40,839 nucleotides of DNA from a virus, in the IMG/VR virus record IMGVR_UViG_3300043429_000548, positions 1-40,839 of that record. One strand, given 5' to 3'. The position numbers and the translations under genes are program-made. Under the pieces are notes generated by a model, which was given only the letters and a program-made list of their open reading frames with translations, was not told the origin of the DNA and searched no databases. Below are positions 2,131 through 25,600 of the stretch, piece by piece (position 1 is the first letter of the stretch; each line of letters begins with the position of its first letter).

Positions 2131-2132
2131 AC

Positions 2133-5606: not shown

Positions 5607-5615
5607 AGAAAGGAG

Positions 5616-5643
5616 TTGCAATCCCAAAAATTCGCAGTAAGAT
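5616..5643 (+). promoter_or_regulatory. possible sigma70-like promoter
   Basis: In the 68-base gap after the helicase gene, TTGCAA (5616-5621) and TAAGAT (5638-5643) stand 16 bases apart, each matching four of six bases of the sigma70 consensus. The gap is AT-richer than its surroundings. It could give an extra start site for the abundant proteins that follow (coiled-coil protein and candidate ssDNA-binding protein). The match is weak, and the site may be chance. Confidence 0.25.
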
Positions 5644-5674
5644 GTCCAACCCTAGACAACAACGGAGAGCCTAG

Positions 5675-6133: not shown

Positions 6134-6148
6134 CCCAAGGAGAAAGTC

Positions 6149-7126: not shown

Positions 7127-7222
7127 GAAGTTCGGGCCGAAAGCGGATGCTGTGTAGAACCGTCACGGTCGTCGACGCACAGACGCAGCGAGTAGGCCCA
7201 CCCCTCAATCTAGGAGAAACAC

Positions 7223-7456
7223 ATGTACGAAATCGAAAAAGGTATCCCCCTGCCCACCAACACCCGCAACAGCAAGTACCCCTACAAGGACATGCAGGTC
7301 GGGGACTCGTTCTTGATCCCGTCCCATCCGGACGACGCGGCTGATCTGCTCAAGCGCATGCGCAACAGCATGTTCGCGGCGGGCAAGCGCCATGGCATCA
7401 AGCTGACCGCAGCCATCGACGACGAAGGCGGTGTGCGGGTCTGGCGTAAGGCTTAA
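7223..7456 (+). CDS. small DUF7303-like protein
   Basis: A 77-residue protein with AGGAGAAA upstream of its ATG. It has the recognisable order EKGIPLP, then YPYKDMQVGDSFLIP, a helix with ADLLKRMRNSM, and a final strand GGVRVWRK. This pattern is common in small phage proteins grouped (from memory) as DUF7303, with no known function. It may bind nucleic acid; the basic helix and GDSF turn are compatible with that but do not prove it. The 70-residue gene at 10796 shows the same pattern. The 96-base gap before this gene holds no other gene that I can support. Confidence 0.6.
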   Translation: MYEIEKGIPLPTNTRNSKYPYKDMQVGDSFLIPSHPDDAADLLKRMRNSMFAAGKRHGIKLTAAIDDEGGVRVWRKA

Positions 7457-7457
7457 G

Positions 7458-7492
7458 AAAGGTTACGGGGGCCCAGTGCCCCCGAACACATC
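7458..7492 (+). promoter_or_regulatory. hairpin between a Shine-Dalgarno-like site and the HTH start codon
   Basis: AAAGG at 7458-7462 is a Shine-Dalgarno-like site about 30 bases from the ATG at 7493, too far for normal initiation. Between them CGGGGGC (7466-7472) pairs perfectly with GCCCCCG (7478-7484) around a five-base loop. If the stem forms, the effective spacing falls to about 11 bases. No T-run follows, so it is not an intrinsic terminator. No other ribosome site is visible close to the ATG. The stem is seen directly; its role is inferred. Confidence 0.4.
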
Positions 7493-7771
7493 ATGGCGTA
7501 CTCTGACCAGATCAAGCTGACGGTGAAGACCTCCCCCAAGACGCTGGGCAATCAGCTCGGGCGCTGGGCGGTGCACCTCGACTTTCCTGTGACGAAGATT
7601 TCTGAGCTGACCGGTGTGTCCCGTCAGACAATCTACAACTGGTTTGCAGGCGGCGAAGTGTTCGTTGCGTACCGACCGTTGGTCACAAACCTCATCAAAA
7701 TTTTGCAGTCCTCGGGAACAGCCGAGGAGGCGTGGAGAAAAGCATGCAAGGAATTCGGCCTCAACAACTGA
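7493..7771 (+). CDS. small helix-turn-helix DNA-binding protein
   Basis: A 92-residue protein. Residues about 31-52 read VTKISELTGVSRQTIYNWFAG, a clear helix-turn-helix with the typical turn GVS and recognition helix RQTIYNWF. The N-terminal part may dimerise and the C-terminal part is a helix (AEEAWRKACKEFGL). It could regulate the early operon or act as a copy-control or anti-repressor-like factor, but no operator is obvious. It is not long enough for a classical cI repressor with a peptidase domain. The end overlaps the next small gene by 28 bases. The start has an unusual leader hairpin (7466-7484). Confidence 0.75.
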   Translation: MAYSDQIKLTVKTSPKTLGNQLGRWAVHLDFPVTKISELTGVSRQTIYNWFAGGEVFVAYRPLVTNLIKILQSSGTAEEAWRKACKEFGLNN

Positions 7772-7878
7772 CCGACGAAGAACTCGTCCGGTACGCCCGC
7801 TTGCTCACGCAGTTGCCGCCAGACTGGGCGGAGGAGCTGCTCAAGCGCTTTGAAGCAAAGCTCGACGACAATAAGTGA
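7744..7878 (+). CDS. 44-residue small protein overlapping the HTH gene
   Basis: The ATG at 7744 opens a 44-residue frame to TGA at 7876-7878, with GGAG and GAGG sites 8-20 bases upstream inside the HTH gene. The product is an amphipathic two-helix peptide with the phrase LTDEELVRYA and LPPDWAEELLKRFEAKL. This type of sequence is frequent in very small phage proteins. It fills the space between the HTH gene and the primase in a module otherwise without gaps, which supports it being real. No function can be assigned. Confidence 0.55.
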   Translation: MQGIRPQQLTDEELVRYARLLTQLPPDWAEELLKRFEAKLDDNK

Positions 7879-7890
7879 CCGGGGACCTGT

Positions 7891-10836
7891 ATGACACCGC
7901 TGGATTTTTTGGCGGCAGTTCTGCCTGCGCAGGGGCATGGCTATTACTGCGCGGTGGAGCTGAGCACAACAAGGAAGGAGCACAGGTTCGCGGAGGACTT
8001 GGCTGACCTTCAACCCTTCGTCACAAAATGGGACAGCGAGAACAAGGACATCTACTTTGCGCTGGCGACGTTCGAGACGATGCCCAAGCGCACGGCGGAA
8101 AACGCCCGCTTTCTGAAGTCTTTCTTCATCGACATGGACGGCTACGCCTCCAAGAAGGAAGCGGGTCTGGCGCTCCAGACGTTCCTCGACAAGAGCGGGC
8201 TGGGCGAGCTGGGCTCCCCATGGATCGTCAGTTCTGGCGGCGGTCTGCACGTTTACTGGCCGCTGACGCACGAGCTGCCAGTGGAGATTTGGAAACCTGT
8301 TGCAGAGAACTTGAAGCGTCTGTGCAAGCAGGAGGGGCTGGCCATCGACATGACGGTGACAGCCGACGCAGCGCGAGTGCTGCGCATACCGGGGACACGC
8401 AACCACAAGAAGAAGTACAACCTCCCCCGCAACGTCACCGTGCTGGCCACGGGTGACACCTTCGAGTTCTCCGCTCTCTCCCCGCTGATCCACGACAAGC
8501 TGCGCGCTGAGGATCACGCCCCCAAGTTCTCCGCCATCCCCGGCGTGCGCCCCACGCGCAGCCCCAACGCCACCCAGATCAAGCTCATGCAGAACAGCGT
8601 CACGCTGTTCGAGAACATCTACGACGCCACCACCAGCGGCCAAGGCTGCGCCCAGCTCAAGGCGTACATCGACAACCCCAAGGAAGATGGCCTTGAGCCG
8701 ATCTGGCGCGGCATGCTTTCATGGACGAAGGTGTGCGATGACGGCGACGAGTGGTCCTCGTGGCTGAGCGCCCTGCACCCATACCCTGAGTCGCGCATGC
8801 GACAGAAGCTGGCCGAGATCAAGGGGCCCTACCCCTGCGTCAAGATGGACAGCGAGAACCCGGGCATCTGCTCCAAGTGCCCGCACTTCGGCAAGATCAC
8901 CAACCCCCTGCGACTTGGGCGCGAGATCAAGACGGACAACGAGGAGCGCGACATCGTTGTGCCCCCGCCAAACGTCCCGGACACCTTTGAGGCCGAGGAG
9001 TTTGAGTTCGAGGAGGAGCCCGAAGCCATCGACGGGGAGACCCCCCATCAGGTTATCCGGCGTCCCAAGCCCCCGCGTGGGTTCAGCTACGGGCAGAACG
9101 GCGGCGTCTACTGCGACCGGATGACCGAGAACGATGACGGCACCAAGAGCAAGAAGCAGGTGCAGATTCTTCCCTACGACTTGTTTGTCGTTGACATGCT
9201 CAAGCAGGAGTCCGACCACCTTGTGCACCTCGTGGCCACCCGACCCGATGGCGTGAAGAACATCACCATGCCCAGCAAGTGCGTGGTGTCCAAGGATGAG
9301 ACGGTCAAGTTCTTGGCCAGCCAGAACGTCATTGCCAGCTACGGCAAGGGCAACGATGTGAACCTGTTCGACTACGTGCGGGCGTGTGTGGAGGAGGCCT
9401 CGCTCAACAAGAAGGCGATCGACGTGCCGCTCCAGTGCGGCTGGCAGAAGGACGGCTCGTTCGTCTACAACTACCGCGTGTTCACCAAGGACGGGCGCGA
9501 GATCACGGTGCCCATGCCGGGGCTGGAGAACATCAACAAGAACACCACCAGCAAGGGCACGCTCGACGGCTGGCGCAAGTTCTGGGACTTGATGATTGAG
9601 CGCCGGATGTACACCATGCTGGCCATGTGCCTCGACAGTTTCGGCTGCTCGCTGTACCAGTTCTCGGACTACGAGGGGTTTGTCTGGCACATCGGCTCCA
9701 CCGAGTCGGGCACCGGCAAGTCGCTCACGCTCAGCGCCAAGGCTGGCGTGTGGGGGCATCCGATCCATTACCGCACGGGCAAGGGCACCTCACCGGTGGC
9801 CATGCAGCAACGCGCTGGCCTGCTCAACAGCCTGCCGCTGCTGATCGACGAGATCACGTCCAAGCAACGCAACGATCTGGAGTGGGCACCGGCCTTCATC
9901 TTCGACCTCACCGAAGGTCAGGGCAAGGAGCGCATGGAGTCCGGCTCCAACAAAGAGCGCATCAACAACAGCGTGTGGAAGCTGTCGTGCACGATGACCT
10001 CGAACACCCACCTGACGGACTACATGTCGGGGGCACGCAAGCACAGCTCCAACGGTGAGCTGCTGCGCCTGCTGGAGTGGACGCCCAACCGCCCCTTGCA
10101 GTGGGACGCCGAGGAGCGCAAGGTTCTCAAGAACATCAAGCTCAACTACGGCGTGGCGGGGGAGGCATGGGTGCGCTGGATGGTCAAGAACCAAGACGTG
10201 TGCGCGGAGATGTGGCGCAGGGTGCACGAAAAGCTCAAGGTGACGCTGGAGTTCGACGATGACGAGCGGTACTGGCACACAGGCTGCACGGCCATCGTGT
10301 CCGCAGCCATCCTCTTGGGGCCGAACTACGCCAACATCCTGCGCGTGCCCATCAACGGCATCATCGAAGCGCTCAAGGAGTTGGTGACGCGGGCCAGAGG
10401 TGTCTTGCGGCGCAACGTGCGCACGGCTGAGGATGTGCTCAACGCCTATACCCGGGACAACTATGGCAGCTTCGTGGTGCTGTGGAAGACCGAGGCCAAG
10501 GGCCTGCTGGCAACGTGGGGCAACGGCGACACTGTGGACAAGTCGATCACGCGGGGCAAGGTCCTCGGGCGCATCGAGCACAACACGCTGACGCCGGGGT
10601 TCACGGAATACTTCATTGAGGAGCAGCTTCTCAAGCAGCACTGCGTGTCGATGAGCTTCGGGTACGCCGACTTCAAAGCGCAGCTCGAAGCGCAGTTCAA
10701 GGTGACCTACACCAAGAAGGACCTGCTGTCCAAGACCAACGGTCCGGGCATGCGCGTCAACGTCATGCACATCAGTCGCCGCTCTGAGGACATCAATGAA
10801 AGTGAACTACCCGTGGTCCAGCCTAAAGCCGGGTGA
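7891..10836 (+). CDS. primase-helicase: AEP-type primase fused to DUF927-like ATPase
   Basis: A 981-residue replication protein. Residues 1 to about 230 resemble an archaeo-eukaryotic (PrimPol-type) primase: FFIDMDG (metal ligands D81, D83), SSGGGLHVYW (S114-H120) and LRIPGTRNHK (R165). A cysteine cluster C316, C327, C330 with H332 may bind zinc. An acidic linker (about 365-395) leads to an ATPase of the DUF927 type, with Walker A GSTESGTGKS (K610) and Walker B LLIDEITS (D653, E654), probably a hexameric replicative helicase. The combination would prime and unwind DNA for the PolA enzyme. There is a GGGGA site before the ATG. The C-terminus overlaps the next small gene by 41 bases. Domain order is clear; the exact family of the helicase part is less so. 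Confidence 0.85.
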   Translation: MTPLDFLAAVLPAQGHGYYCAVELSTTRKEHRFAEDLADLQPFVTKWDSENKDIYFALATFETMPKRTAENARFLKSFFIDMDGYASKKEAGLALQTFLDKSGLGELGSPWIVSSGGGLHVYWPLTHELPVEIWKPVAENLKRLCKQEGLAIDMTVTADAARVLRIPGTRNHKKKYNLPRNVTVLATGDTFEFSALSPLIHDKLRAEDHAPKFSAIPGVRPTRSPNATQIKLMQNSVTLFENIYDATTSGQGCAQLKAYIDNPKEDGLEPIWRGMLSWTKVCDDGDEWSSWLSALHPYPESRMRQKLAEIKGPYPCVKMDSENPGICSKCPHFGKITNPLRLGREIKTDNEERDIVVPPPNVPDTFEAEEFEFEEEPEAIDGETPHQVIRRPKPPRGFSYGQNGGVYCDRMTENDDGTKSKKQVQILPYDLFVVDMLKQESDHLVHLVATRPDGVKNITMPSKCVVSKDETVKFLASQNVIASYGKGNDVNLFDYVRACVEEASLNKKAIDVPLQCGWQKDGSFVYNYRVFTKDGREITVPMPGLENINKNTTSKGTLDGWRKFWDLMIERRMYTMLAMCLDSFGCSLYQFSDYEGFVWHIGSTESGTGKSLTLSAKAGVWGHPIHYRTGKGTSPVAMQQRAGLLNSLPLLIDEITSKQRNDLEWAPAFIFDLTEGQGKERMESGSNKERINNSVWKLSCTMTSNTHLTDYMSGARKHSSNGELLRLLEWTPNRPLQWDAEERKVLKNIKLNYGVAGEAWVRWMVKNQDVCAEMWRRVHEKLKVTLEFDDDERYWHTGCTAIVSAAILLGPNYANILRVPINGIIEALKELVTRARGVLRRNVRTAEDVLNAYTRDNYGSFVVLWKTEAKGLLATWGNGDTVDKSITRGKVLGRIEHNTLTPGFTEYFIEEQLLKQHCVSMSFGYADFKAQLEAQFKVTYTKKDLLSKTNGPGMRVNVMHISRRSEDINESELPVVQPKAG

Positions 10837-11008
10837 GGGGTTCTTTGTTCCTGCGATCGACGTGGAGAAAGCCCGAGAGCTCGGGCTTCGCTCCGCAGTA
10901 GGACAGCGAGTGAGGGGCAAGGCCGTCATCTGCATCAAGGACGGCCTGCTCGGTGTGTGGTTCTTCAGGCCCCCTCCCTCTCCTCAAGCCTCCGCACAAC
11001 CTCCATGA
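10796..11008 (+). CDS. 70-residue DUF7303-like protein, last gene of the early operon
   Basis: The ATG at 10796 lies inside the primase gene with TGAGGA seven bases upstream. The 70-residue product reads KPGEGFFVP, a helix with EKARELGLRSAVGQRV, and a strand GLLGVWFFRP. This matches, segment by segment, the 77-residue protein encoded at 7223 (VGDSFLIP, helix, GGVRVWRK), so the two are probably distant paralogues. The proline-rich tail PPPSPQASAQPP lies where the gene overlaps the 3' end of the giant late gene on the other strand (10965-11008). Function unknown. Confidence 0.6.
   Translation: MKVNYPWSSLKPGEGFFVPAIDVEKARELGLRSAVGQRVRGKAVICIKDGLLGVWFFRPPPSPQASAQPP
10869..10888. terminator. candidate bidirectional terminator hairpin between the two operons
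   Basis: AAGCCCGA (10869-10876) and TCGGGCTT (10881-10888) are perfect inverted repeats around GAGC, a strong GC-rich stem. On the minus strand it lies about 77 bases past the stop of the giant late gene and is followed by TTTCT. On the plus strand only two T residues follow. It is embedded in the last plus-strand gene, exactly where the two convergent operons meet, so it could stop late transcripts and perhaps also early ones. Confidence 0.4.
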
Positions 11009-14000
11009 ATCGCCGGGCTGCTTGCAGCTTGGCGTCCTCCAGCGTGTCGATGCGCGCACGCTTGGCGTCCCCGGTCATGTCCGAGCGCTCCTGCACCCGT
11101 CGAATCTCGGTGTTGATGCGCCCGACAAGCTGACGGTACTGGCCTGCGGCAGTGGCTGCACCAAGCCGCGCCATGTTCTCTTGCTTGTACTCGGCGGCTT
11201 CCTCGCGCCGACCTTCCTTGAGCATGGTGCTCAGCGTGGTGCGTGCCTGCATGGCGTCTTCTGCCAGCCGTGCCACGGCTTCCGAGTCTGCGCCGCCAAT
11301 GCGTTTCTGGAACGCAGTGCCGATTAACGGCATGTCGCTCATGCGACCTGTCGGACGCTCACCTTTATCCGCGCCTGCAAACATCTCGTTGGCACCTGCG
11401 GCAATCGCCAGAGGCATCGACCCCAGATAGCCGCGCACCAAGTGCTCGATCTGCACAGGAGACAGCACCGGGAACGCCTCGCTGATGCGCTTGGCCAACT
11501 CGGTGGTGGTCGTGTTGTACCGCTGCTCGGTGTCGAGGTTCTTCATCCGCAGCGACTCGATCGGAGCGCCAGTCAGGAAGTTCTTGTTGGTGAACACCTC
11601 AAACGCAGGCTTGGCGATCTGCGGCACGCCCATCGACGTGTAGCCCGGGACCGATTGCAGGAACATGTCGCGCAGCGCGGTCATCTGGTCCTTCGTCCGA
11701 ACTTCCCCAACCATGCCGTCGACAGCAGCCACAGCCAGCGAGAAGAAGTAGCCCGCTTCGTACGGGATCGGCAGCTTGACCGGCTCGTCAACGCCCGGCA
11801 GGTGCAGGAAGAAGTTGGTGTACCGATCGCGCGGGCGAGCGTTCTTGTAGTACTCGTCGTCCTGCATGGCCATGGCGTACACAAGACCGAGGCTGACAAG
11901 GAACGCGGCGTTGGTGAAGAACTTCTTCTTGATCCGCTGCGACTCCTCGAACGGCATCTTGCCGGTGGCCGCTTTGTACAGCACGTTCAGGCCTTGAATC
12001 TGCGCGTTCAGGAACGGGATCAGGCGGTTAGCGTACTGCACGGTGGGCGACAAACCTCGCTTGTAGAAGTTCATCGACTCCATGGTCATCATGTCGGCCT
12101 CGACCTCAGACAGGCCGTTGGCAATCGCGTTGTCGTAGACCAGCGCCCGGGTAGCGGCATCAGCGCGCAACGCGGTGCGGTCCATCGCATCAAAGATTTT
12201 GCGGTACAGCGGAGCTTCGCGGTTCTGCACGATGCGGCGGGCCATGTCGCCAATGTCGTCCACATCTCCTGAGAAGATGTTGCTCTGAATCAGCCCTTTC
12301 TCCAACAGCTTTGCCTGCGTCGGGCTGTTGCCTGCCGACATGCGCACAAACTCACGGCCAGCCTTGGCAACAGCGCGCATGGGGCCGTAGTTCAGACCGC
12401 CAGTGAACGCTGCGGCCATCGGGTCGCGGAACAGCTGCCGGGCAATGTACATGGGCATGCGCGTCACGCCTGCGCGCAGCAGGTCCGACGCAGCACCAGC
12501 AAGCTTGAGGAACTCAGGCAGCGGCAGGTGCGCACCTTCAAGGCTCTTGACCAGCAGCTCAGACGGAACGCCTTCTGCCAGCGTGTCGCTGGTGTCGACG
12601 ATCACATGGCGCTTGCCGGTGTCGCTGGCGTCGTTGGGGTCAGGTTCTTGGTTGAACCGGATCACGTCCGCGCCAGAGCGACCGTCGCCCTTTTTGATGA
12701 CCATCTTCTTGGACGAACGACCGATCTCTTGCAGAGCGTACGCCACGTTGCGCGCAGCGTAGTTGGTCAGCGCCTTGTCCATCAGCAAGAACGTGTTGCG
12801 CGGGATGGCCTCGTCCAGAGGCAACAGCTTGGTCTCGCCGCCCTTGAGCTGGTTGAGATACGGCTGGCGGCGGATGTCGCCAATCGTAATCATGGTGTTG
12901 CCGCCAAACACCAGCTCGGCCATGCCGTTCTCGTTGACGCGATAGAACGGAACGTAGTCGCCGTCCTTGTTCAAGCGGGTGGCCTCGGCTTTGGTGATGG
13001 CCCCTGTGCTGGCCAGGAAGTCAATCAACCCCTTGTTGTAGGCGTTGTACTGGCGGCGCACATTCTCCAGCGCCTTCTTGAGCGGAGCGTCGGCATCAAC
13101 CTCGGCCAGCACGGCGTCGATCTCAGCGTCAGTGATGCCCAGCGCGCCGATGTCGAGCTTGCTCACACCCTTGTTCTTGGCGCGTTGCGCGACCATGTAC
13201 ATCTGCGCCACGGTTGCACGGCGCTTGGCATCGACCGGCAGCTCTGCGATTGCCTTAAACACGTCAGCAGCAGAATCACGGCCCGTCGTGCGCACGCCCG
13301 TCAGACCCTTGGCGTCTTTGTACAGCTCTGGCACACCGCTGCTCATCACCGAGTAGATGAGCGGCAGCTTCTGGTCAGCCTTGATAACGCTGTACATGCC
13401 CTGCGTGAACAGCTTGTCGTCGCCCATGCCCTTGGCACCGGCTTTGAGCGCTTCGCGGAGACCCGCACGCATATCGACGCCCTGCATCTCCGCTTCGAGC
13501 GCAATGTTCTTGCCGAGCTTTTCACGGAACGTCTTGGGCTTGCCAATCGTTTTGTCAGCCAGCGACTCCAGTGCGCTGGGGGCCCCACGCGAAAACAGCA
13601 GCCGCCCAGAACCTTCTCGTCCTTTGCCGGTTGCAGGTCCAACAGGCTCCAAGTTCACGCCAATGATTTCAGGAACTTGGTCGATATACGCGCGCTCTGT
13701 GTATTTACCTTCGGTATTTTGCTCAATAGCTTCGATGCCTGCTTCTTTCAAAAGGCGCACGGTCTCGTCAATACCGAGCTTATCGCGCATTGTGTAGAAC
13801 AGGCTGTTACCGGCCCACTTATTTATTTTGTCAACGGTATTTTTTGTGCTTTGCGAAGCGTACTTGCGCATGAGCGCATCAAGCTTGGGGCGCTCACCAA
13901 GCGTGTGCATTTCGTTCACGCCAAAAATTCTACTGAGCGGAATTGCGTCGAGCGTTCTGTACAAGTTGCCTTCGGACGGGCGTGTTTTGAGCCCGACAAT

Positions 14001-17000
14001 CTTGGCGGCGTCAAGCGCCTGCGCTGCGCGCAATTGACGCTTAGCTGTCGTGAGCTCGCGCTGCGCAGAAGCTGTGTCTTCGCCCTTACGCTGCTTGCGG
14101 TCAAGAGTTTTCTCTGCGTTTTCCACACCCTTAGAAAAACGCTCGATCAACAGAGGGATGTATTTTTTGACCGCAGCATTTTTTGTAGGGTCTAGCTCGC
14201 CGCCTGCCGACACATCTTGCAAGTACCGCGTGAGCAAATTGCTTTCAAATAGCGTTTGCATTTCGGATAAAGACAACTCGGACTTATCAGCACCAAGAAA
14301 TTTGCTGTCCATGGAGCGGTAGTCTTGGTACGTCTTACTTCCGTAACCTGACGCGTTGGCAGCTTTGCCAAAAGGAACCGCGTGCTGGTAGTACTCGGCG
14401 TATTTTTTGTCTGGCGTTACGTACGGACCTTTCCCAAGGTTGGTGCTCCCTTCAAACCGCTGCTCGTACGAACCTTCGCCCGCACCAGAAAATTTTGAGT
14501 CAAAAGCGGTGAAAGTAGCGTCTGTGCCGTGCCAAGTGCCGCGCAGCTCAAGTTGCGCAGCACCATACGCCATGTTTACAAGGTCGCCAGATGTAAGTTT
14601 GTCCGGATTGATCCCGTACTTTGCCAGCGCTTTACGAAGAACGTCAAGCACCATTCGCAGCCAGTTTCTAACAGGCCCGCCGTTTTTCATAGCACTGGCA
14701 GAGACGCCAGCTTTAACAGCTTCTTCTACGGCGTACGCCAAAAGCTCATCATCGTACTGGTCAACTGTTGTTTCAGCTGCTTCAGCGCGTGCAATCGCAC
14801 TTTTTGCAATACGGGACTCGATAGAGCCGTCGTTAAGTTTCGCCCATTTTTTGACAGCGCTAACAAGCTGTCCGTACTGAGCAGCGTTGAACAGATTGCG
14901 GAAACCAAGGTGCACACCTACTTCGTGCAACAAAACGCCGAGCTCTTCTCCTTTGCCGATATTGTCAGCAAACATAAAAACGCTGCCATTTTTCGGGTTG
15001 ACAAATGCTTTTGCATCTGTCGGAATGTTGGCGTTTTCGTAGTCGTACTTAAATCTGATGTCCGCAAAAAAATCAGCAACAGACTTAAGCAGCACAATGC
15101 GTTTTCCGGCAATACCTTTATCGCCAACAATTTTGTCAAGTGCTCTTTCCAAAGCCTCGACGGTTTGCCCACCAGTTTTTGGCGTACCGCGAGAAAACTC
15201 AAAAGTGTTGTCGTTGTCGAAGTCTTCATCAAACGACTCGGCAAGACTAGACCTCGGCGCTTTTGCAGTCATCTCCGTGCCAGACAGGTCAACGACCATG
15301 CCGCCGTTCTCGACAACGGCTTCGAGCTGCGCACGATCCGCAATCCGTTTGCCAAGGATGTCCAACACGCCCGGAAGTTCCTTGCGCAATTTGTTCAGCC
15401 GCGCAGCAGTGGCAGGCTGTACGCGGTCAGGACTCTGCGCAACCACGGCTTCGAGCTGCGCAATTTCCCGTTGGATGGTGTCGCGCTGACCGATCAGACG
15501 GTTCGTCTCTTCAAGCTGCGCCTGCAAGATTTGCTGCTGCGTGCGCTCAGCCATGGCGGCAAACTCTGCTTGCAACTGCTCCGTGGTCTTGGCGTCGTTC
15601 AAGCGCTTCACAAACGCGTTGGCTTCTGCCACAGCTTGCTCAGCCTTGGGCTGCTTGACATCTCGTTTCTCGACAACAGGCGTCTTCACAGTGCCCGTGT
15701 CAGCCTTGGTCTCCGCAGTGCCTGCGCGGAACTTGGCCGGAGCGGACGACTGAATGCGGGTGGCCTGCGAGACCTTGCCAAGCTGCTCAGGTTGAAGCTG
15801 TGAAATCTCCAGCAACACCTCGTTGATCTTGGTTTGCAGTTTGGCTCTTGCGTTTTTGTTGCCCGCTTTTTCGGCGGCATCGCGCTGCTTCTCCAAGTCA
15901 GCAAGCTTTGCGCGAGATTCCTTAAGCATCGCCACACGAGCTTGCGCTTCGTCAATCTGGATTTGCAGCTCTTGACCGGGCTTCTTGGCGCGCGCAGCCA
16001 CAAGCTTTTCAAGGGCTTCCTTGAGCTGCTGAACATTCGCTTTGGCTTCGTCAATCTGCGTTTGCAACGCCTGTTTAGGTTTCTTGGCAGGCATGTCGGC
16101 AAGCTTTCCAAGGTCTTCCCTAAGCGTCTTCAAACGCGCTCTCGCTTCGTCAAGCTGCGTTTGCAGAGCTTGTTCGGGCTTCTTGGCAATAATGTCGGAG
16201 ATTTTTTCGCCGGTCTGCGCGTCCGTGCGTCGAATGCCAAGACGGTTCGAGCGCTGGGCAACAAGTGATTGCAGCTCTTTCAGGTACTCGCGCCGACGTT
16301 TCTTGCGCTCTTTTTGCGTATCTTCAGACACAGGAGCGCCAGTCTCCGGGTCCGTTGTCTTCTTAATCAGCTCGTCCTGCTTCTCGATGTTGCGCTTGAG
16401 TTTCTCAATACGCTTGTCGATGCTTTCAGTGACAGCGGCAGCAACTTCAGGGTCGCTGGAGAAAACTCGCTCGGCTTTTTCAAGGGCCGCTGCTCGCTTG
16501 GCTTTGGTCTTCTGCAACTGCTCGCCGTAGGTACGCAACGTTGCAATCCGCGCATCTGTGTCAGCAATGTACTTCTTGAGTTTCTCCGCATCTGCGCCAA
16601 GCTTCTCCCGCACGTCACGCTCAGCGCCCTGCAAATTCTTTGTAATTTCGGTGAGCTTGTCCTGCGCAATCTTTTTGCGAACAGACAGCTCAGAGATGCC
16701 TTCGTCGTTTTCTGCAATATCTGCGTCGAGCTGCGCCTTGTCGTCGTTTGTGGCCTTGACCATCGCCAGCATCTCGCGGCGGTTCTCGAAGTCGATGCGC
16801 TCGCCGGGAATTGCTGCAAGCCTGTCAGCGCGGTCTTGAAAGTCCTCACGCTCTTTCTTGTTGCGCTGCTCTGCCGCAGAGCGCTCAGCAGGCACAGGCC
16901 CCATCGCCCATTTCTTGCCACCAATGCTGACCGTGCGCTCTTCCCCAGCGGCGGTGATCTCACCACGCTTCTGCTCGATCTGGCTGCGGATACCTGCGGC

Positions 17001-20000
17001 AGCGGCCCCCTCTTGCTCAGCCTCGATGTCGGCAAGCACCATCTCGCCTTCCGTGCCCTTGGTGGCATCTTTGGCCAGCGCGCGCGCCGTCTCGACTTCC
17101 TTCTTGGCTGCGGCAAGTTCTGGAGAAGCTGCACGACGCTGCTCCAGCGCCTGGGTCTCTTCCTGCACCGCCATGCCCGTGCGCAGCATGCCGCGAGCCG
17201 CGTTGTCCAGACGGCGCTCAACTGCAAGTTGTTGCTGCTGCAAAGCCAAGTCTTGGTCAATGAAGCGCACGATGGCCACCGACGGGACGTACGGCTTGAC
17301 CTGACGTTGCTGCTGTCGCAGCTCTGCAATCTGTTGGTAAATACGGCGGACAGTGCCAGAACCCTGGTCAGCCTCACCGCCAATAACCTGTTTGTTGGCG
17401 TCCAGCGCACGCTTGAGCTGCTCAGTCAGCGTCTGGATTTTGGTCTCGATTGCGTACGCGTCGGGGTTGCGCATGCGCTTGAGAGCTTCCAGCACTTTTG
17501 TCCGCGCATCGACAATACCGGGCAGCTTCTCGCCAATCGAACCCAGCTTGTTGCGGGCTTTGAGCAGCTCTGCTTTTGCCTTGGCAACCTCGTCTGCCGC
17601 TGCCACAAAGTTGTCGTGGCCTTTCACAAACTTTGCCGTATTGGCAGCAATGTTCTGGCTGATGCGGTCTGAGTCGGCGTTGGCTTGGTCGAACTGCGTT
17701 TGGTACTTTTCGTACTGCGTGTTGAGCGCATCAAGGTCTTTGCGCAACGCGGTCTCAACTTCGCCCAACTTGACCTCGGCGTCTCCGACAAGCTGCATGC
17801 CGACACGGCGCTCGCTGTCGCGCACGTTGGCCAACTGCGCTTTGCGTTGCTCAATAGCGGCACGGCGTTGGCCGACCGCTGCCAGTTTTTGCTCCAGCGC
17901 GCCAATGTCCTGCGTCATGCGCGAGACGGTGTCACGCGGCATACCCTGCGCAGCACGGGCGGCTTTGAGGTAGTCGCTGGCAAGATACCGATCAAAGTCC
18001 TCGAACGAGTCGAACACTTCGGCCTTTTGCTGCGGCGCGTACAGTTGCGCGCCGGTGGTTTGCAACGGGCCAACGTCTTGCGGAGAGACAAAGGTTGCCT
18101 TGCCGCCCTCAACTTGTGTCTGGGCCTGCGGGGCCACCGCTTCCGGCATCAGCTCCGCGCCAAGCTCTTGCTGCTGGCTGTTGTCGTACTTGCCTTCCTC
18201 GATAGCGGCAAGTTGCGCCTGCACGTCAGGGAGCAGGTTCTGCGCGGCTTGGGGCGACGTGGCTTTGCGGTTGAGCCAGTCACTGAACAGGTTCAGGCTT
18301 TCCGGCTGGTTCTGGATGGCACCGAAGTTGTCGATCACTTTTTGAAGAAGTGACTGTTCCTCGGGGGTGAAGTTGGTCAGCGTGTTGTCCCGGTTGCGCT
18401 TCTCGAACGCACGGTTGATTTGCGTGGCCAGCATCTGCGGCGACACAGTGCTCGGCACAGCCGTTCGCGTGAACGTCGGATTGGACGCGGTCGCCCCGCG
18501 CCACTTAGCGCTCAGGCTGTCGAGCGCATCCGTGATGTTGGGCATCTTGCCTTGCGCAGCTTGTTCCAGTGCAGGCAGCGCTTCTTGCTCGATCGCCGTA
18601 ATGGTCTCGGGCTTGAGGCCCGGACGGACCGTCTGAATTTCGTCGACCAGCGCGGCCACCACATCTTGCGGAGACACGCCTGCTTCAGGGTCGAACATGT
18701 TGCGCAGCGTGTCGTTGCGCTGCACCTGCGCTGCCTCCAATTTAGGCACGGAGCCCAGTTTGGTTTGCAGCTCGGCAGTCTCTGTCCCAAAATCCTTGCG
18801 GCTGGTGTCCTGCGCTTCGTCTGAGATTTCCTGCTGCATCTCGCGCAGGAGGTTCATCTCCTTTACGATCTGGCGCATTTGCGTCGTCGGACGTGCGCGT
18901 CGATCGGGCCTTGCGTTCTGGGCAAGGCGGGCGGCTTTGTACTGCTCGTTGAGCTCCGCCAGCTTCTGTGCAATAGCTTCTGCACTGCTGTACGACGGGC
19001 GGTTGATGACGCCAGAACCGGTCTGGCCAAACAGATCACCTTGGTCCACCGCTGTCGGCATGACCGACAGCTCCCTCGGCGCAGGGCCTTCAACCGGTGC
19101 GGGGGCTTCAGCCGGTGCAGGCGTGGCGGTCTGCACTTCGGGCGGCTTGGGCATGCTGGCCAGCGCCTCGGACAGTGCCTTGAGCACCTGCGTGTTCTTG
19201 CGCAGGTTCAGCCCCGGGATGCGGACTTGGTTGTCCACAAGCTGCTGCGCCATCTGCGGGTCAGCCATCAGGTACGGCACAAACATGGCCGGTTCCTGTA
19301 CGTTCAGCGCAGAGGCTTCTTCGGGCAGGTAGTTCTGCTCCACCATGATGCCAAGCTGCTGCGCGGCGTACTTCGCGGGGGCTTCGGCCTGTGCAGCCGC
19401 TTGCTGTTCCTGCGCTTGTTGCGCCAGAACAGCAGCCCGGTCTGGGGCCACCATCCAGTTGTCTTCGGTGCTGATGTCCTGCGCCTGACCTGCGGGGGCT
19501 TGGCCGGGCACGGTGCGCGTGCGCTCCAGCATGTAATCCATTGGCGACAGACCTGCCACACGCTGTTCTTCCAGCGCCCTGTCGAGCAGCCCGCTCTTTT
19601 TGAGCTGGTTGTACTCGGGGGCCAGCGCGTTGCGTTGCGATGCGTTCTCTTTGAGCTGCGCGTTGATCTCGCGGTTGAACGCCTTGTCGACAGCCTCTGT
19701 GGGGCTGTCCTTGGTGATCTTGCGAATCTGTTTTTGCAGCTCGATCTTTTGCTGCTCAAGCTGCGTGATCTGGTCGTTGACCTTCAGCGCATAGTCAGGC
19801 GTCTGCTTGTAGGCTTCTTCCTGCTGCCGTTCCTGCTCTTGTTGAGCAAGCGCGTCTTCACGAGCTTTGCGGCGGTCGGCAATGTCAGCTTCCTCGGCCT
19901 GCTCGCGGGCCTTGTATCGCTCGTACCCACGACCGACGGGGGAGCCAACACCAGCGAGCGCGGCACCACCGATGAAGCTGTCGATGTACTCTTTGCGGGC

Positions 20001-20813
20001 TTCGGGGTCCCCGATGCTCAGGCCTGCCTGCGCACGTTCGAGCACCTGCTGGAGCGTCTCGGTGACGCCCTCTCGGGTCATGGCACCGCCAGCGGTCTTG
20101 GCGTAGTCCGCCACGGCTTGGCGCACCGTCTGGTTGGCAATCGCACGGGCTTCCTGCGTGGTCAATTTCGAGCCGACCGAACCGAACAGCTTGCCCACAC
20201 CGGGCATCAGCGCCATGGCGGCAGTGTCGAGAAGAGCCTGCGGAGCGGCGGCTGCGGCAGCAGCGCCAAGGCTCGTGTCGGCAAGTTTGGTGCCCTCGGG
20301 CTCCATCTGACGGCCAAGGTTGGAGCCGACAAACTGGCCGTAGTTGGCCAAACCGGCAGCGCCAGCACCAACCAGTGCAGCGGCGGCAGGGGCCCCAACA
20401 CCGGTAGCAGCCAGCGCAGCGATACCACCAGCGGCAACAGGCGCGGCAATGTAGGGGATCGAGCCGCCAAAAGTCTCTGCGAGCTTTGTGAGAGGGGCTT
20501 CGGTCCAGCCTTTTTCGGTGGGGGTGAAGCGCTCTCGTGCGGCCTGCTGGCGCTCGCGGAAGTACTGCTCCGCAGCTTGCTCGTCCCCAAACCCAAGTTT
20601 CGCCGCCGTGAGGGCGGTCTGCCCCTTAAGCTCCTCAAACCCCGCCGCCGCTGCGGCTCTCGCGCCAGTTGTGTCGCGTTTGGGTTTGGGCTTCTCCGCG
20701 CTCTTGAATGCTTCCGGATACTTTTCGATGGCGGCTTGGCGTGCATCAGCTACCGTCTCGCCCTCCTTCATTTCAAAGTAACGACCATCAGGAAGCTGGA
20801 TGTATTGAGGCAT
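10965..20813 (-). CDS. giant 3282-residue polyvalent virion (ejection) protein
   Basis: This is the largest gene of the window and the last of the late operon. Residues 1-40 hold a short motif (IQLPDGRYFEMKEGE). About 115-180 and 280-300 are Ala/Gly-rich hydrophobic stretches that may insert into membrane. About 300-1850 is mostly charged coiled coil, including three 33-residue repeats. HEVGVH (1963-1968) is a peptidase-like HExxxH motif. From W2094 (WHGTD ... GKGPYVTPD) an ADP-ribosyltransferase-like domain begins, running to about 2400. From about 2450 to the end the sequence resembles the LPD38 large-polyvalent-protein domain (GDYVPFYR; DDEYYKNARPRDRYTNFF), with a hydrophobic segment near 2970. 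Such proteins are packed in the virion and injected with the DNA. I see no transglycosylase domain. The ribosome site is weak. The region 13650-15250 is AT-richer than the rest. Confidence 0.8.
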   Translation of the reverse strand: MPQYIQLPDGRYFEMKEGETVADARQAAIEKYPEAFKSAEKPKPKRDTTGARAAAAAGFEELKGQTALTAAKLGFGDEQAAEQYFRERQQAARERFTPTEKGWTEAPLTKLAETFGGSIPYIAAPVAAGGIAALAATGVGAPAAAALVGAGAAGLANYGQFVGSNLGRQMEPEGTKLADTSLGAAAAAAAPQALLDTAAMALMPGVGKLFGSVGSKLTTQEARAIANQTVRQAVADYAKTAGGAMTREGVTETLQQVLERAQAGLSIGDPEARKEYIDSFIGGAALAGVGSPVGRGYERYKAREQAEEADIADRRKAREDALAQQEQERQQEEAYKQTPDYALKVNDQITQLEQQKIELQKQIRKITKDSPTEAVDKAFNREINAQLKENASQRNALAPEYNQLKKSGLLDRALEEQRVAGLSPMDYMLERTRTVPGQAPAGQAQDISTEDNWMVAPDRAAVLAQQAQEQQAAAQAEAPAKYAAQQLGIMVEQNYLPEEASALNVQEPAMFVPYLMADPQMAQQLVDNQVRIPGLNLRKNTQVLKALSEALASMPKPPEVQTATPAPAEAPAPVEGPAPRELSVMPTAVDQGDLFGQTGSGVINRPSYSSAEAIAQKLAELNEQYKAARLAQNARPDRRARPTTQMRQIVKEMNLLREMQQEISDEAQDTSRKDFGTETAELQTKLGSVPKLEAAQVQRNDTLRNMFDPEAGVSPQDVVAALVDEIQTVRPGLKPETITAIEQEALPALEQAAQGKMPNITDALDSLSAKWRGATASNPTFTRTAVPSTVSPQMLATQINRAFEKRNRDNTLTNFTPEEQSLLQKVIDNFGAIQNQPESLNLFSDWLNRKATSPQAAQNLLPDVQAQLAAIEEGKYDNSQQQELGAELMPEAVAPQAQTQVEGGKATFVSPQDVGPLQTTGAQLYAPQQKAEVFDSFEDFDRYLASDYLKAARAAQGMPRDTVSRMTQDIGALEQKLAAVGQRRAAIEQRKAQLANVRDSERRVGMQLVGDAEVKLGEVETALRKDLDALNTQYEKYQTQFDQANADSDRISQNIAANTAKFVKGHDNFVAAADEVAKAKAELLKARNKLGSIGEKLPGIVDARTKVLEALKRMRNPDAYAIETKIQTLTEQLKRALDANKQVIGGEADQGSGTVRRIYQQIAELRQQQRQVKPYVPSVAIVRFIDQDLALQQQQLAVERRLDNAARGMLRTGMAVQEETQALEQRRAASPELAAAKKEVETARALAKDATKGTEGEMVLADIEAEQEGAAAAGIRSQIEQKRGEITAAGEERTVSIGGKKWAMGPVPAERSAAEQRNKKEREDFQDRADRLAAIPGERIDFENRREMLAMVKATNDDKAQLDADIAENDEGISELSVRKKIAQDKLTEITKNLQGAERDVREKLGADAEKLKKYIADTDARIATLRTYGEQLQKTKAKRAAALEKAERVFSSDPEVAAAVTESIDKRIEKLKRNIEKQDELIKKTTDPETGAPVSEDTQKERKKRRREYLKELQSLVAQRSNRLGIRRTDAQTGEKISDIIAKKPEQALQTQLDEARARLKTLREDLGKLADMPAKKPKQALQTQIDEAKANVQQLKEALEKLVAARAKKPGQELQIQIDEAQARVAMLKESRAKLADLEKQRDAAEKAGNKNARAKLQTKINEVLLEISQLQPEQLGKVSQATRIQSSAPAKFRAGTAETKADTGTVKTPVVEKRDVKQPKAEQAVAEANAFVKRLNDAKTTEQLQAEFAAMAERTQQQILQAQLEETNRLIGQRDTIQREIAQLEAVVAQSPDRVQPATAARLNKLRKELPGVLDILGKRIADRAQLEAVVENGGMVVDLSGTEMTAKAPRSSLAESFDEDFDNDNTFEFSRGTPKTGGQTVEALERALDKIVGDKGIAGKRIVLLKSVADFFADIRFKYDYENANIPTDAKAFVNPKNGSVFMFADNIGKGEELGVLLHEVGVHLGFRNLFNAAQYGQLVSAVKKWAKLNDGSIESRIAKSAIARAEAAETTVDQYDDELLAYAVEEAVKAGVSASAMKNGGPVRNWLRMVLDVLRKALAKYGINPDKLTSGDLVNMAYGAAQLELRGTWHGTDATFTAFDSKFSGAGEGSYEQRFEGSTNLGKGPYVTPDKKYAEYYQHAVPFGKAANASGYGSKTYQDYRSMDSKFLGADKSELSLSEMQTLFESNLLTRYLQDVSAGGELDPTKNAAVKKYIPLLIERFSKGVENAEKTLDRKQRKGEDTASAQRELTTAKRQLRAAQALDAAKIVGLKTRPSEGNLYRTLDAIPLSRIFGVNEMHTLGERPKLDALMRKYASQSTKNTVDKINKWAGNSLFYTMRDKLGIDETVRLLKEAGIEAIEQNTEGKYTERAYIDQVPEIIGVNLEPVGPATGKGREGSGRLLFSRGAPSALESLADKTIGKPKTFREKLGKNIALEAEMQGVDMRAGLREALKAGAKGMGDDKLFTQGMYSVIKADQKLPLIYSVMSSGVPELYKDAKGLTGVRTTGRDSAADVFKAIAELPVDAKRRATVAQMYMVAQRAKNKGVSKLDIGALGITDAEIDAVLAEVDADAPLKKALENVRRQYNAYNKGLIDFLASTGAITKAEATRLNKDGDYVPFYRVNENGMAELVFGGNTMITIGDIRRQPYLNQLKGGETKLLPLDEAIPRNTFLLMDKALTNYAARNVAYALQEIGRSSKKMVIKKGDGRSGADVIRFNQEPDPNDASDTGKRHVIVDTSDTLAEGVPSELLVKSLEGAHLPLPEFLKLAGAASDLLRAGVTRMPMYIARQLFRDPMAAAFTGGLNYGPMRAVAKAGREFVRMSAGNSPTQAKLLEKGLIQSNIFSGDVDDIGDMARRIVQNREAPLYRKIFDAMDRTALRADAATRALVYDNAIANGLSEVEADMMTMESMNFYKRGLSPTVQYANRLIPFLNAQIQGLNVLYKAATGKMPFEESQRIKKKFFTNAAFLVSLGLVYAMAMQDDEYYKNARPRDRYTNFFLHLPGVDEPVKLPIPYEAGYFFSLAVAAVDGMVGEVRTKDQMTALRDMFLQSVPGYTSMGVPQIAKPAFEVFTNKNFLTGAPIESLRMKNLDTEQRYNTTTTELAKRISEAFPVLSPVQIEHLVRGYLGSMPLAIAAGANEMFAGADKGERPTGRMSDMPLIGTAFQKRIGGADSEAVARLAEDAMQARTTLSTMLKEGRREEAAEYKQENMARLGAATAAGQYRQLVGRINTEIRRVQERSDMTGDAKRARIDTLEDAKLQAARRFMEVVRRLEEREGA
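15891..16187 (-). repeat. three 99-bp tandem repeats in the giant gene
   Basis: Three adjacent units begin with AKKP and contain QTQIDEA followed by an LKE-type heptad segment. Each is exactly 33 codons, so the units lie at 16187-16089, 16088-15990 and 15989-15891. The DNA copies are diverged, but the CTTCTTGGC-type core recurs at 99-base intervals. The unit is three hendecads long and extends the coiled coil. Confidence 0.8.
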
Positions 20814-20875: not shown

Positions 20876-22600
20876 TTACTGGCGCGGCGCAACTTCTGCA
20901 CCCTTTGGCAGACTGGATACTGGGCGCAGCGCACTTTGTGCGCGCGCCATTTGGTCAAGCAGGTCGCCCATCGTCATAGGGTCTTGTCCACGGTTTTCAC
21001 GCTTGCTGTTTTCCTCAACAAGCAGCTTAACCAGCGGCATGACAGATCTGTCTGCCGTAGCGTCAGACATGAGTTGCGTGGCCTTGAACGCGTCACCACC
21101 GGCTTTCTGCATGGCTGCGTTCCACAGCGCCAGCGCGGGAGCGTTGGCTGCTTTTGTTGCAGCAATCTGTGCGTTGGTGCGCTTGGTCTGCTCACCTTCG
21201 GTGTACTGCGTTTTGTACAGGTCGGAGACTTTACTGAACATGTCCTGCGCGTTCTTGGCCTTGACTCCGAACAGTATCTCGGCACCTTCGAGACCGTACT
21301 TCTCCGCATCCACACGGGCTTTGCGCAAGCTGGCTTCGGCGTCTTTGACCTCTTTGCGGTTCATGTCGCTGCGGTTCAGGCGCAGATCGTCCAGCGTATC
21401 CTTGGCCAGCTCAAGCCGCTCTTGTGCAGCGCGGATTTTCTCGATACCAGCAGCGTACTGCTCGGTGCCAACACGCGCACCTTTGCCGATCGCTTCACCC
21501 AGCGGACCGCGAGAGGACATGATGGCCAGACCGGCGTTGAGGAACGCCAGCCCTTTGTTCTCTTCGCCTTGCTTACCGAGCGCAGCTTCGCGGGCAGCAA
21601 TACGCTCGCCCCGGCCCTTGTACACATCGCCCTCGGCTGCTTGGCGCTCCATGATGCTGCGCAGGTTTTCCGTTTCGCCTTGCACCTGCACGTTGCCAAG
21701 CTGTTGTCGCCGCCCCATCAACTGCTTGCCTTGCTCGTCGATAGGAGCCATGTAACGTTGCTGCGCAGCGGCCAGCGTATCTTCGCTGTACGGAGTGGCC
21801 GGGCCTTGTTTCAACAGCGACGAAACGCCTGTGTTGTCGGCACTGGCTTTGGTACGGCTTTTACTGACATCAGCATCGTCGTCGGCAATTGGCGTCACGT
21901 TACGAGGGGGAATAAAGCGCGGGTCCTGTGCGGCGGGGATGCTTCCGCGACCAGCATTGCCTTTGTAGCCGGTATCAGGCGCAACGCCAAGCGACTCGCG
22001 CATGGCGTCTGTGACCGGTGTGTAGCTGGCTTTCGGGCTGCGGTCGTTGGGACTGCGCACGACATTTCGCAGCAAGTTGATTGGTGCCGCAGCAACATCC
22101 GCCACAACACCGGCAGGGTATGCCGCTGCAATCACGGCCTTCTCAACGTCAGAAAGCGGTTGTTTGCGGTTCAGCTTCTCCATGGCCGTCTGCAAAAGCT
22201 GACCACTTTCAAAGCCCTCAATGCTGTACATCGGGTCAGACAGCACGCTCCCCTGCGAGTTGTACCGCTCCACGTCGCCGCCGTCAGCGAACGCAACCAG
22301 ACCGCCAGCGGCCATGTTGTCGATGTTGGGCGTGGGCAACGTGCCGATCCCGACATCTTCCGGCAGTTGCTGGGGCTGCATGCTGGCCACCACTTGGTCG
22401 TTGACCTTGGGCTGCTGCATGGCCTGCTGCGGGTTGACCTGCGCCGACTGCCGCATGCGCTCGCGGCGGGTCTTCTCGTTGAGGATCAGACTCAGCGTGA
22501 TGGCGTCGTCTTTGTACTGCTGCGCCAACTGGGGCAGCATCTGGTCCGACATCGTGGAGAGCCGGTCGGCCAGCGTAGCGATTTGTCCCATGCCGTTCAT
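20876..22600 (-). CDS. 574-residue internal virion/ejection-type protein
   Basis: A 574-residue protein of the late operon with GGGGTAAG before its ATG; only three bases separate it from the upstream gene's stop. It has a helical N-terminus, a GGLVAFADGG motif near residues 98-107 that recurs in neighbouring virion proteins, a disordered Pro/Asp/Ser segment (about 180-280), and a long charged helical region (about 300-480, for example AAREAALGKQGEENKG and ERLELAKDTLDDLRLNRSD). No enzyme motif is seen. Its position between the giant polyvalent protein and the Q-rich protein suggests that it is one of the internal proteins released on ejection. This is inferred from context; I cannot name a family. 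Confidence 0.6.
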   Translation of the reverse strand: MNGMGQIATLADRLSTMSDQMLPQLAQQYKDDAITLSLILNEKTRRERMRQSAQVNPQQAMQQPKVNDQVVASMQPQQLPEDVGIGTLPTPNIDNMAAGGLVAFADGGDVERYNSQGSVLSDPMYSIEGFESGQLLQTAMEKLNRKQPLSDVEKAVIAAAYPAGVVADVAAAPINLLRNVVRSPNDRSPKASYTPVTDAMRESLGVAPDTGYKGNAGRGSIPAAQDPRFIPPRNVTPIADDDADVSKSRTKASADNTGVSSLLKQGPATPYSEDTLAAAQQRYMAPIDEQGKQLMGRRQQLGNVQVQGETENLRSIMERQAAEGDVYKGRGERIAAREAALGKQGEENKGLAFLNAGLAIMSSRGPLGEAIGKGARVGTEQYAAGIEKIRAAQERLELAKDTLDDLRLNRSDMNRKEVKDAEASLRKARVDAEKYGLEGAEILFGVKAKNAQDMFSKVSDLYKTQYTEGEQTKRTNAQIAATKAANAPALALWNAAMQKAGGDAFKATQLMSDATADRSVMPLVKLLVEENSKRENRGQDPMTMGDLLDQMARAQSALRPVSSLPKGAEVAPRQ

Positions 22601-22603: not shown

Positions 22604-25600
22604 TTACCCCGTGATTTTCTGCAAGGCCAATTTTGCCAGACCACCGTCTTTTGGAACACGGCCACCCTTCTTGAACATGCCCAAGCGCGATGCGCCGTAC
22701 AGGGCCGTGCCAGCGCCAATCAGTTGGTTGGTCATGCTGGGCGCTTGGCCATAGATGGTCGCCGCCGACTGAGTCGTTGGCGTGCCGCGCAGCAGGTCCG
22801 ACATGAAGCCGAACTGCTTGTACGGGTAGTTCTGCCGGTTGAGGTAGTCCTGATAATCATTGTTGAGGATGTTCTGGACTTGGTTCTGCTGCTGCGTGCC
22901 AAGCTGGTTCTGCAAGTTGATGTTGCCAACGTTCTGGTTGTACAGCGTGTTGCCGAGCTGGCCGAGGTTGCCGTACCCGGTCATGCCAGCTTGCAGGCCT
23001 TGGAGGCCCAGACCCGCGCCGTACTGGTTCGCCTGCTCGTTGAGCTGGTTGGCTGCTTGGCCGTACTGCGCCATGTTGCCCGCAGCGCTCATCAGGTTGC
23101 CGTAGCCGAACTGGCGCGACTGCTCAGCCAGTTGCTGCGCTTGCAGACCGTACTGCTGGTTGGCCAACTGCGCTTGCAGGTTCTGGCCCGCGCCGAGGTT
23201 CTGCACGCCAAGCAGCGCGTTGAGGTTTTGCTGCCCAACGTTGAAGCCCATCGACTGGTTGGCAAGGTTCGCTTGCTGCGCCAACTGCGCGTTCTGAAGG
23301 TTGGCCTGCTGCCCAAACTGCCCCTGCTGAAGCCCGAACTGCCCGGCAAGCGCTTGGTTCGACAGACCAAACTGGTTCTGCGCGGCTTGGTTGGCTTGGT
23401 TGGCGGCTTGGTTGAACTGGCCTTGCTGGAGCCCGAACTGGCCCATGAGCGCTTGATTGGCAAGGTTCGACTGCTGCATGTTCGCAGCCGTCTGCATGTT
23501 GGCCTGCTGGCCAAACTGGCCTTGCTGGAGCCCGAACTGGCCCGCCAGCGCCTGATTGGCGAGGTTGACCTGCTGCTGATTGGCAGCGTTCTGGAGGTTG
23601 GTCTGCTGGCCGAACTGACCTTGCTGCAAGCCATACTGACCTTGCAGCGCTTGGTTGGAAGCGGCGGCTTGGTTCAGGTACTGGAGGTTGGCCAGACCCA
23701 TCTGCTGGCCAAACTGCCCCTGTTGCAGACCGTACTGACCTTGCAGCGCTTGGTTGGAGAGCGCAAACTGGTTCTGCGCGGTTTGGTTGGCCGCAGCAGC
23801 TTGGTTCTGCGCTTGCTGGTTGGCCAAGCCCATTTGCTGACCAAACTGGCCTTGCTGGAGACCGTACTGGCCAGCCAGCGCTTGGTTGGCGGCAGACGCT
23901 TGGTTCTGCGCTTGCTGATTGGCCAAGGCGGTTTGCTGGCTCATCTGACCTTGCTGGAGACCGAACTGGCTGCTCACGCCTTGGTTGGCAAGGTTGGCTT
24001 GCTGCTGCAACTGCGCGTTCTGGAGCGCCGTGTTGTAGCCCATGTTGGCGTTGAACTGCCCGGTCTGCATCCCGGCCTGCTGGTTGGCCAGCAGCGCCTG
24101 AAGCCCCGTGGCTTGGTTCAGCTGCTGCGCCTGCATGCCGGTCTGCGCGGCAAGACCCTGCGTCTGGAGGCCCGCGCTCAGGTTCTGGAGGTTAGCCTGT
24201 TGACGGTTGCCTTGGTTGGCCAGCGCCGCTTGCAGCGCCTGCTGGGCCGACATGCCCGAGGCTTGAAGGCGGTTGGCCTCGTTCTGCACCGCAGCTTGCT
24301 GCTGGTTGTTCAAGTTGGCCAGCGAGGTTTGCAGGCCAGTGTTGACGCCAAGCTGCTGCGCCTGCTGTTGCGAGGCGAGGTTCTGCTGACCCACAGTCAG
24401 ACCGGCCTGCTGGTTGGCCAGTGCGGCTTGCAGTGCGGCCTGCTGGTTCATGCCGGACGCTTGCAGTCGGTTTGCTTCGGTTTGAACCGCAGCTTGCTGG
24501 GCGTTCGTCAGGTTGGCCAAAGAGGTCTGGAGACCTGCGTTGACGTTGAGCTGCTGCGCAGCCTGCTGCGAAGCAAGGTTCTGCTGGCCGACGGTGAGGC
24601 CCGCTTGCTGGTTGGCCAGCGCTGCCTGCATGGCCGCTTGCTGGTTCATGCCCGACGCTTGCAGGCGGTTGGCTTCCTGCTGCACAGCCGCTTGCTGCTG
24701 GTTGTTCAGATTGGCCATGGCCGTCTGAAGTTCCGTCTGCGTGCGCAACTGCTGCGTGGCTTGCTGCGAAGCAAGGTTCTGCTGACCCACCGTGAGCCCG
24801 GCCTGCTGGTTGGCCTGCTGCGCAGCCAGACGCGCTTGCTGCTCGGTGTTGAACTGCGACTGGGCTTGGCCGTAAGCTTCCTGCAAGCCTTTGGCTTGGA
24901 TGTCCCCAAGTTGCGTAGCAAGATTGCGCTGGCGCTCGGCTTCGACCAGCGCCTGACGAGAGCCGCCAAACGCACCTGCCTTGACCGCAGCGGCCTGCTC
25001 GCCCATCTTCTGCATCTGCGACGAACGGGACGCTTCGCGCTTGGCGATGTCGACCACGTTCTGCATGTAGGGCGACATGTACGCTTGGGCAGAGCCGGGC
25101 TGGGCAAAACTCTGGGTGCTGACACGCTCAGCCGGGCCCATCTGGAAGTTCTGCAACTCCGGACGGTAATTTGTCTGCGCGGCTTGCAAAGCGCCGATAC
25201 CGACCTGCTGCGCGTCAACTTGCTGGGCAGGGCCCATTTGGAAAGCTTGGGCTCTAGGATCGTAACTGGTCTGCGCCGCGTTGATGGCGTTGGTGCCGAC
25301 TTGCTGCGCAGCAGCCCGCTCGGCCGGCCCCATCTGGAACGCTTGGATGTTGGGGTTGTACCCGGTCTGCGCGGCCTGAATGTCGCGGCTGGCCACATCG
25401 CGGCTGGCCACATCCGGAGCGGCCTGCATTGAGAGCTGCTGGAGGTCCGGGGCGTTGATGCGCTCACCGGTAACGCGGTCAAACCCGACTTGCCCCGGGC
25501 CTTGCATCTGCGCGGCCTGCACTTGCGGAGACGCACCCAACGACACGTCACGGGCCATCGCTGCACGCATCTCGGGAGAAGCGCCAAGCTGTGCAGCTTG

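Follow-up and report, generated by a model that had tools for sequence, protein, structure and literature searches.

Exchange of zincin-like motif classes ahead of the LPD38 module in giant polyvalent-type proteins of a freshwater phage and its relatives

The window analysed here, a single contig of 40,839 bases from a freshwater virus infecting bacteria, raises the question of what a phage encodes in one gene of 3282 codons, and which parts of so large a product are kept and which are exchanged among relatives. The gene is a single open frame on the minus strand (10965–20813) with an ATG start and no internal stops, which bears out the uninterrupted gene described in a first-pass annotation of the same DNA; the strand, missing from that annotation, is added here. 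Related proteins of approximately 1.8–3.6 thousand residues come from dozens of contigs and, accordingly, the giant frame is not due to chance. Several unrelated domain activities can be recognized in one chain, namely LPD38, a zincin-like HExxxH domain and a probable ADP-ribosyltransferase (ART), and judged by this composition the product is a polyvalent protein in the sense of Iyer 2017 (PMC5512222), whose account of such proteins includes HEXXXH zincins, ARTs and LPD38. Because proteins of this kind have been known since then, the suggestion of the first-pass annotation that the gene represents an undescribed host-takeover or anti-defence system finds no support at the level of the class, as far as the class is outlined in that account. 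What appears to be new, against the open-access literature searched, is the slot in which classes of zincin are exchanged among relatives.

Genomic setting and constant parts of the giant protein

Replication genes, encoding DNA polymerase, helicase and primase, are carried on the plus strand, one of the products from this strand being a 981-aa primase/helicase-like protein (7891–10836; DUF927, E 1.3e-21). The minus strand holds a late block that ends with the giant gene and includes an SU10-type tail adaptor (38714–39379; PF24175, E 1.3e-23; phrog_2941), an endolysin (31277–31723) and a virion structural protein (29298–31295). By virtue of the adaptor, the giant gene can be assigned to the late structural genes of a short-tailed phage, with which it shares its strand. 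Two genes upstream of the giant gene on the same strand, encoding proteins of 574 aa (20876–22600) and 1239 aa (22604–26323), are conserved neighbours, kept at about 66 relative loci. The 1239-aa protein consists mostly of repeats rich in Gln, Asn, Ala and Gly (ANQALAGQYGLQQGQFGQQ and QAAQLG units, for example); Pfam gave no match for it and PHROG a marginal one only, and its homologues lie upstream of the giant gene at about 67 loci. The 762-aa Gly/Ala-rich protein encoded at 26333–28621 (minus strand) contains a GDASGDASGD run close to its C-terminus. Matches to PTS_IIA, Peptidase_M6 and other Pfam families with E >0.01 were dismissed as chance.

The giant protein begins with a conserved head (residues 1–40; 20694–20813, minus strand) with the pattern M..YI.LPDG....EGE....A...YPEAF, and one or the other of two similar forms of this head (LPDG... 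or APNG...) is found in 48 of the 50 relatives with complete 5′ ends. By analogy with P1 DarB, which is packaged into the capsid via its first 30 residues (PMC9024508), the head is a candidate capsid or ejection signal. Further along the chain, a Gly/Ala-rich hydrophobic stretch (residues 118–157; 20343–20462, minus strand), with a Kyte-Doolittle 19-mer maximum of 1.75 at residue 130, is a possible membrane-inserting part; it recurs near residues 120–135 in most relatives and is weaker in some. An ejection-like function of the N-terminal part is plausible. The region that follows (residues 301–1860; 15234–19913, minus strand) is charged, Ala/Gln-rich and helix-prone, with heptad periodicity concentrated at about residues 946–1470. 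The first-pass annotation had listed hydrophobic N-terminal segments and some 1500 residues of coiled coil: one such segment stands, the plural being generous, as the only other 19-mer above 1.5 lies at residue 2965, and the long charged region is real, the extent of its coiled coil having been overstated.

The opposite end of the chain is equally well defined. LPD38 (PF18857; residues 2986–3164; 11322–11858, minus strand) is identified with certainty by its Pfam match (E 2.8e-25; 90 bits versus a gathering cut-off of 27, full profile length), confirming the LPD38-like C-terminus suspected earlier. It sits at the tip of a conserved module that takes up the last 870 or so residues (2413–3282; 10968–13577, minus strand), is delineated by alignments, AF2 and BFVD and is common to many phage giant proteins, the Escherichia phages Pondi and PTXU04 being among its carriers. 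The AF2 model of this module, based on 44 relatives (pLDDT 72, pTM 0.64), has 69 counterparts in BFVD at E <= 1e-3, many of them named LPD or LPD38 proteins, and the fold check proposed for the LPD38 module, therefore, led to many phage polyvalent proteins. Since the best of these matches take in the greater part of the module, conservation reaches far beyond the 189 columns of the Pfam profile. Comparison of the module with the PDB gave no structure match and only chance-level matches by sequence, and profile comparison detected no similarity to C2 of the N4 virion RNA polymerase (vRNAP). Searches of bacterial genomes returned one distant MAG match for the module and none for the enzyme block ahead of it, and hence no host is proposed.

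The slot between the helical region and the C-terminal module

The slot contains a zincin-like domain (residues 1880–2088; 14550–15176, minus strand), supported by conservation, which carries the motif HEVGVH (residues 1963–1968; 14910–14927, minus strand). The motif and the acidic positions of the downstream DDELLAYAVEEA are conserved across 11 aligned relatives, so that an HEXXXH helix and a downstream conserved glutamate, as expected of the HEXXXH form of zincin-like metallopeptidases, are both present. Motif, conservation and the naming of an HEXXXH zincin class in PMC5512222 support a conserved zincin-like site at residue 1963, where the first-pass annotation had placed a peptidase-like part. 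The model of residues 1861–2412 reached a pLDDT of about 70 in the zincin part, left the ART part unmodelled and matched no PDB entry at E<=0.001, being too poor for the ART part to be weighed either way. Sequence searches of the PDB with the zincin and ART segments gave chance-level matches only, and profile comparison of the zincin segment with N4 C1 and C2 revealed no similarity.

In the window, the zincin-like domain is followed by a probable ART (residues 2089–2402; 13608–14549, minus strand), close to the start of which lies the WHGT motif (residues 2094–2097), conserved in relatives. H2095 and Y2131 are invariant in all 11 aligned sequences; the third catalytic residue is uncertain, the candidates being E2373 (D in type 2) and D2378. 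The latter had appeared invariant among five sequences and was withdrawn as such when 11 were considered, being D in most of them but replaced by N in L074 and by G in L038. Because the third catalytic residue is unsettled, the ART of the window may be inactive. The segment matches ART-PolyVal (PF18760; Tox-ART-HYD2 clade, with an H-Y-D active site) with 11.9 bits (E 0.39), below the gathering score of 31.2 bits, and is for this reason described as probably ART-like rather than filed under that family. The alignment of window-type (type 1) sequences matches that of type 2 (L058, L094, L098 and L088) over its full length with 98% probability (E 7e-14), and weak matches to ART-PolyVal are given by three of the four members of type 2 (best E 0.026). 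The slot of another relative, L067, matches ART-PolyVal above the gathering score (E 2.4e-28, 100 bits), and in a direct profile comparison between type 2 and L067 only the WHGT stretch was aligned. The WHGT region is, on this evidence, probably a divergent ART; of the ART-like domain claimed at the outset, the conserved motif and the probable assignment as an ART are retained, and the family match falls short of the threshold.

To place these domains in a wider context, relatives were gathered by two IMG/VR scans with the C-terminal module, 61 of which (window included) have enough upstream sequence. An HExxH or HExxxH motif is found upstream of the module in all 61, mostly at a distance of 120–500 residues (992 in L071). 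Three motif classes can be distinguished among the members, A (HEVG[VA]H), B (HE..GH) and C (HExxH), and what lies C-terminal to the zincin differs as well: there may be nothing, one of several sorts of ART, a module with RRTFLRG or a long module. On the FastTree phylogeny of the C-terminal module, there are at least 20 changes of zincin motif class and at least 7 changes in the presence of an ART. The classes are set by motif, with sequence-level homology shown among the members of class B; certain B and C members may be versions of a single lineage, in which case fewer exchanges would be counted. Searches for the combination of ART and zincin in isolated phages (tblastn) found none.

Two of the alternative contents deserve a brief description. 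The module after the class A zincin of L060 (8801–10000) contains a twin-arginine-like MSRRTFLRGAV sequence, with a weak match to Pfam TAT_signal (E 0.053), and modules of this type also follow class A zincins in L054, L055, L057, L072, L075 and L089. In L071 (6551–10000), a different module of about 800 residues, which includes SWCTGASVQTARG, comes after a class C zincin.

One replacement, which rests on a single contig, L008, can be traced at the DNA level. L008 aligns to window positions 971–19325 (about 18 kb) with 93.5–97.3% DNA identity (about 97%), and the zincin and ART block (13587–15223, minus strand) is the sole non-homologous stretch. The sequence in its place in L008 measures 677 bases, keeps to the reading frame and codes for a class B zincin, with no ART; both junctions are in frame and are found in no other contig, and identity between the L008 block and any other sampled block does not exceed 48%. 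No other gene of the 18 kb differs in kind and, consequently, no partner gene in this region was exchanged together with the block. Further pairs with 88–97% identical C-terminal modules also hold different blocks, homology resuming 3–13 residues upstream of the module in 6 of 10 pairs and up to about 55 residues upstream in the others. A local assembly fault in L008 is less likely, given the in-frame junctions, the divergent block and the similar behaviour of other pairs, and retains a residual probability. A separate length difference of 125 bases from L008 (16012–16136, minus strand) falls within repeated coil units (AKKP..ALQTQ.DEA..), the copy number of which seems to vary.

A carrier for host-acting enzymes or a self-processing chain

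The late same-strand position of the gene, the constant ends of the protein, the conserved motif, the repeated exchange and the virion-borne kin described in the literature lead us to favour, with some confidence, the reading that the giant is a virion-carried ejection protein of a podovirus-like phage, in which a constant carrier holds an exchangeable slot for host-acting enzymes. The kin include, besides P1 DarB, the DarB-like gp69 of the Bcep22-like podovirus JC1, a protein of 4515 aa with LPD38 at residues 4195–4401, which has been found in virions with 51 unique peptides (PMC9144972), and by analogy with both the window protein is probably carried in virions. The carrier would comprise the conserved head, the hydrophobic N-terminus, the long helical middle and the 870-residue LPD38 module, the head and hydrophobic N-terminus presumably serving packaging and membrane passage, whereas the slot between coil and C-terminal module would present the zincin-like metallopeptidase and, in the window, the ART. 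We infer that the protein is taken up into the head and ejected along with the DNA, and that the slot enzymes are active and modify host proteins at once, aiding establishment or blunting defence. The contents of the slot would, as we propose, be swapped as a cassette owing to differences among hosts in targets or counter-measures. If the slot indeed holds effectors, its contents amount to a catalogue of early host-modifying enzymes.

The edges of the slot bear on a different job for the zincin, which could replace or supplement the favoured one and agrees with it as to the ART. In the window, the block is flanked by FEFSRG (residues 1871–1876; 15186–15203, minus strand) and LLFSRG (residues 2405–2410; 13584–13601, minus strand). 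FSRG before and FS[RK] after the block are found in 20 of 20 class A blocks and in 0 of 39 others; none of 24 class B blocks has FSRG or FS[RK], but [FYL]R[TV] precedes the block in 19 and [FYLR]R[TSKV] follows it in 22, and FSRG is absent from all 15 class C blocks, all these counts being descriptive and not a significance test, since the patterns were chosen after viewing the sequences and the members are related. Over whole proteins, FSRG occurs at a rate of 0.018 per 100 residues. The codons of the motif vary at both edges, so that it is the peptide that is conserved, and a DNA-level recombination seam as the source of the repeats was rejected.

One might suppose, then, that the zincin is a self-processing peptidase which cleaves at both flanking motifs, FSR-G/K in class A and [FY]R[T/S] in class B, either in the head or after ejection, and frees the zincin and ART from the coil and the C-terminal module. 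We regard this as a tentative proposal, less likely than not. The right-hand motif tracks the zincin class even where the adjoining module differs, be it the ART of the window, the RRTFLRG-containing module of L060 or the canonical ART of L067, where a class B zincin goes with a block ending in YRSK; nothing else hints as clearly at the motif being read by the zincin. Common descent of the block, with motif and zincin co-inherited as one unit, is, however, a simpler explanation of the same match. Autoprocessing was proposed by Iyer 2017, but the same account, as far as it covers this case, has the N4 vRNAP, also zincin-bearing, packaged uncut (PMC5512222). Moreover, self-processing alone offers no reason for so many exchanges, and FSR does not qualify as a general linker of phage giants, being absent in most of five more distant ones, with Vibrio phage 1.232.O as one possible case.

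More speculative still is the generalization that LPD38 giants hold a dedicated exchange slot for a self-excising peptidase cassette with an optional effector, framed by its own cut sites. Were this so, any cassette would fit the same carrier and free itself, a modular design of phage protein delivery that would resemble polymorphic toxins, except for being internal and cutting itself. We are aware of no description of the exchange slot and its edge motifs in the open-access literature searched. Finally, that the protein is only a structural or ejection component, with zincin and ART as degenerate relics turned over by neutral recombination between related phages, is improbable, since, although the candidate third ART residue varies (D2378 in L074 and L038) and the ART-PolyVal match is below threshold, neutral decay would have lost the HExxH/HExxxH motif kept in 61 of 61 members despite exchange between classes, as well as the ART H and Y invariant in 11 of 11.

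Comparison with known systems

Among known systems, the carrier with host-acting slot enzymes that we favour can be compared, first, with N4 gp50, the vRNAP (PMC12633501), which likewise is the last gene of the late block, encodes about 3500 aa with a membrane-related N-terminus and proceeds from cargo to a zincin-motif domain and a large helical C-terminal part. Unlike gp50, the window protein has no polymerase, Pfam and PHROGs scans of the window having found no RNA polymerase domain of the N4-like (Schitoviridae) type, and shows no profile similarity to N4 C1 or C2. T4 Alt offers a further functional parallel as a virion-carried ART that hits the host at once, as outlined in PMC5512222, but is of the R-S-E type, without a fused zincin or LPD38. 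Like the window protein, JC1 gp69 is a giant late product of a podovirus with LPD38 close to its C-terminus; it differs in its transglycosylase, methylase/helicase and LPD3 parts, and a slot with zincin and ART is not reported for it (PMC9144972). There is also the parallel with the polyvalent proteins of phages and plasmids as a class, large multidomain chains of tailed phages with zincin-like MPTases (the HEXXXH form included), ARTs and LPD38, the general scheme of which includes self-processing or host targeting by the MPTase (PMC5512222). Zincin domains are very common in polyvalent proteins, and whether they act on their own chain or on host proteins is a question that has stood since 2017, and the always-present peptidase, the class swaps in near-identical phages and the matching edge motifs render it testable on one purified fragment. 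In the scheme as set out in PMC5512222, a fixed slot before the LPD38 module and class-specific edge motifs are not described, and the ART of the window protein is divergent.
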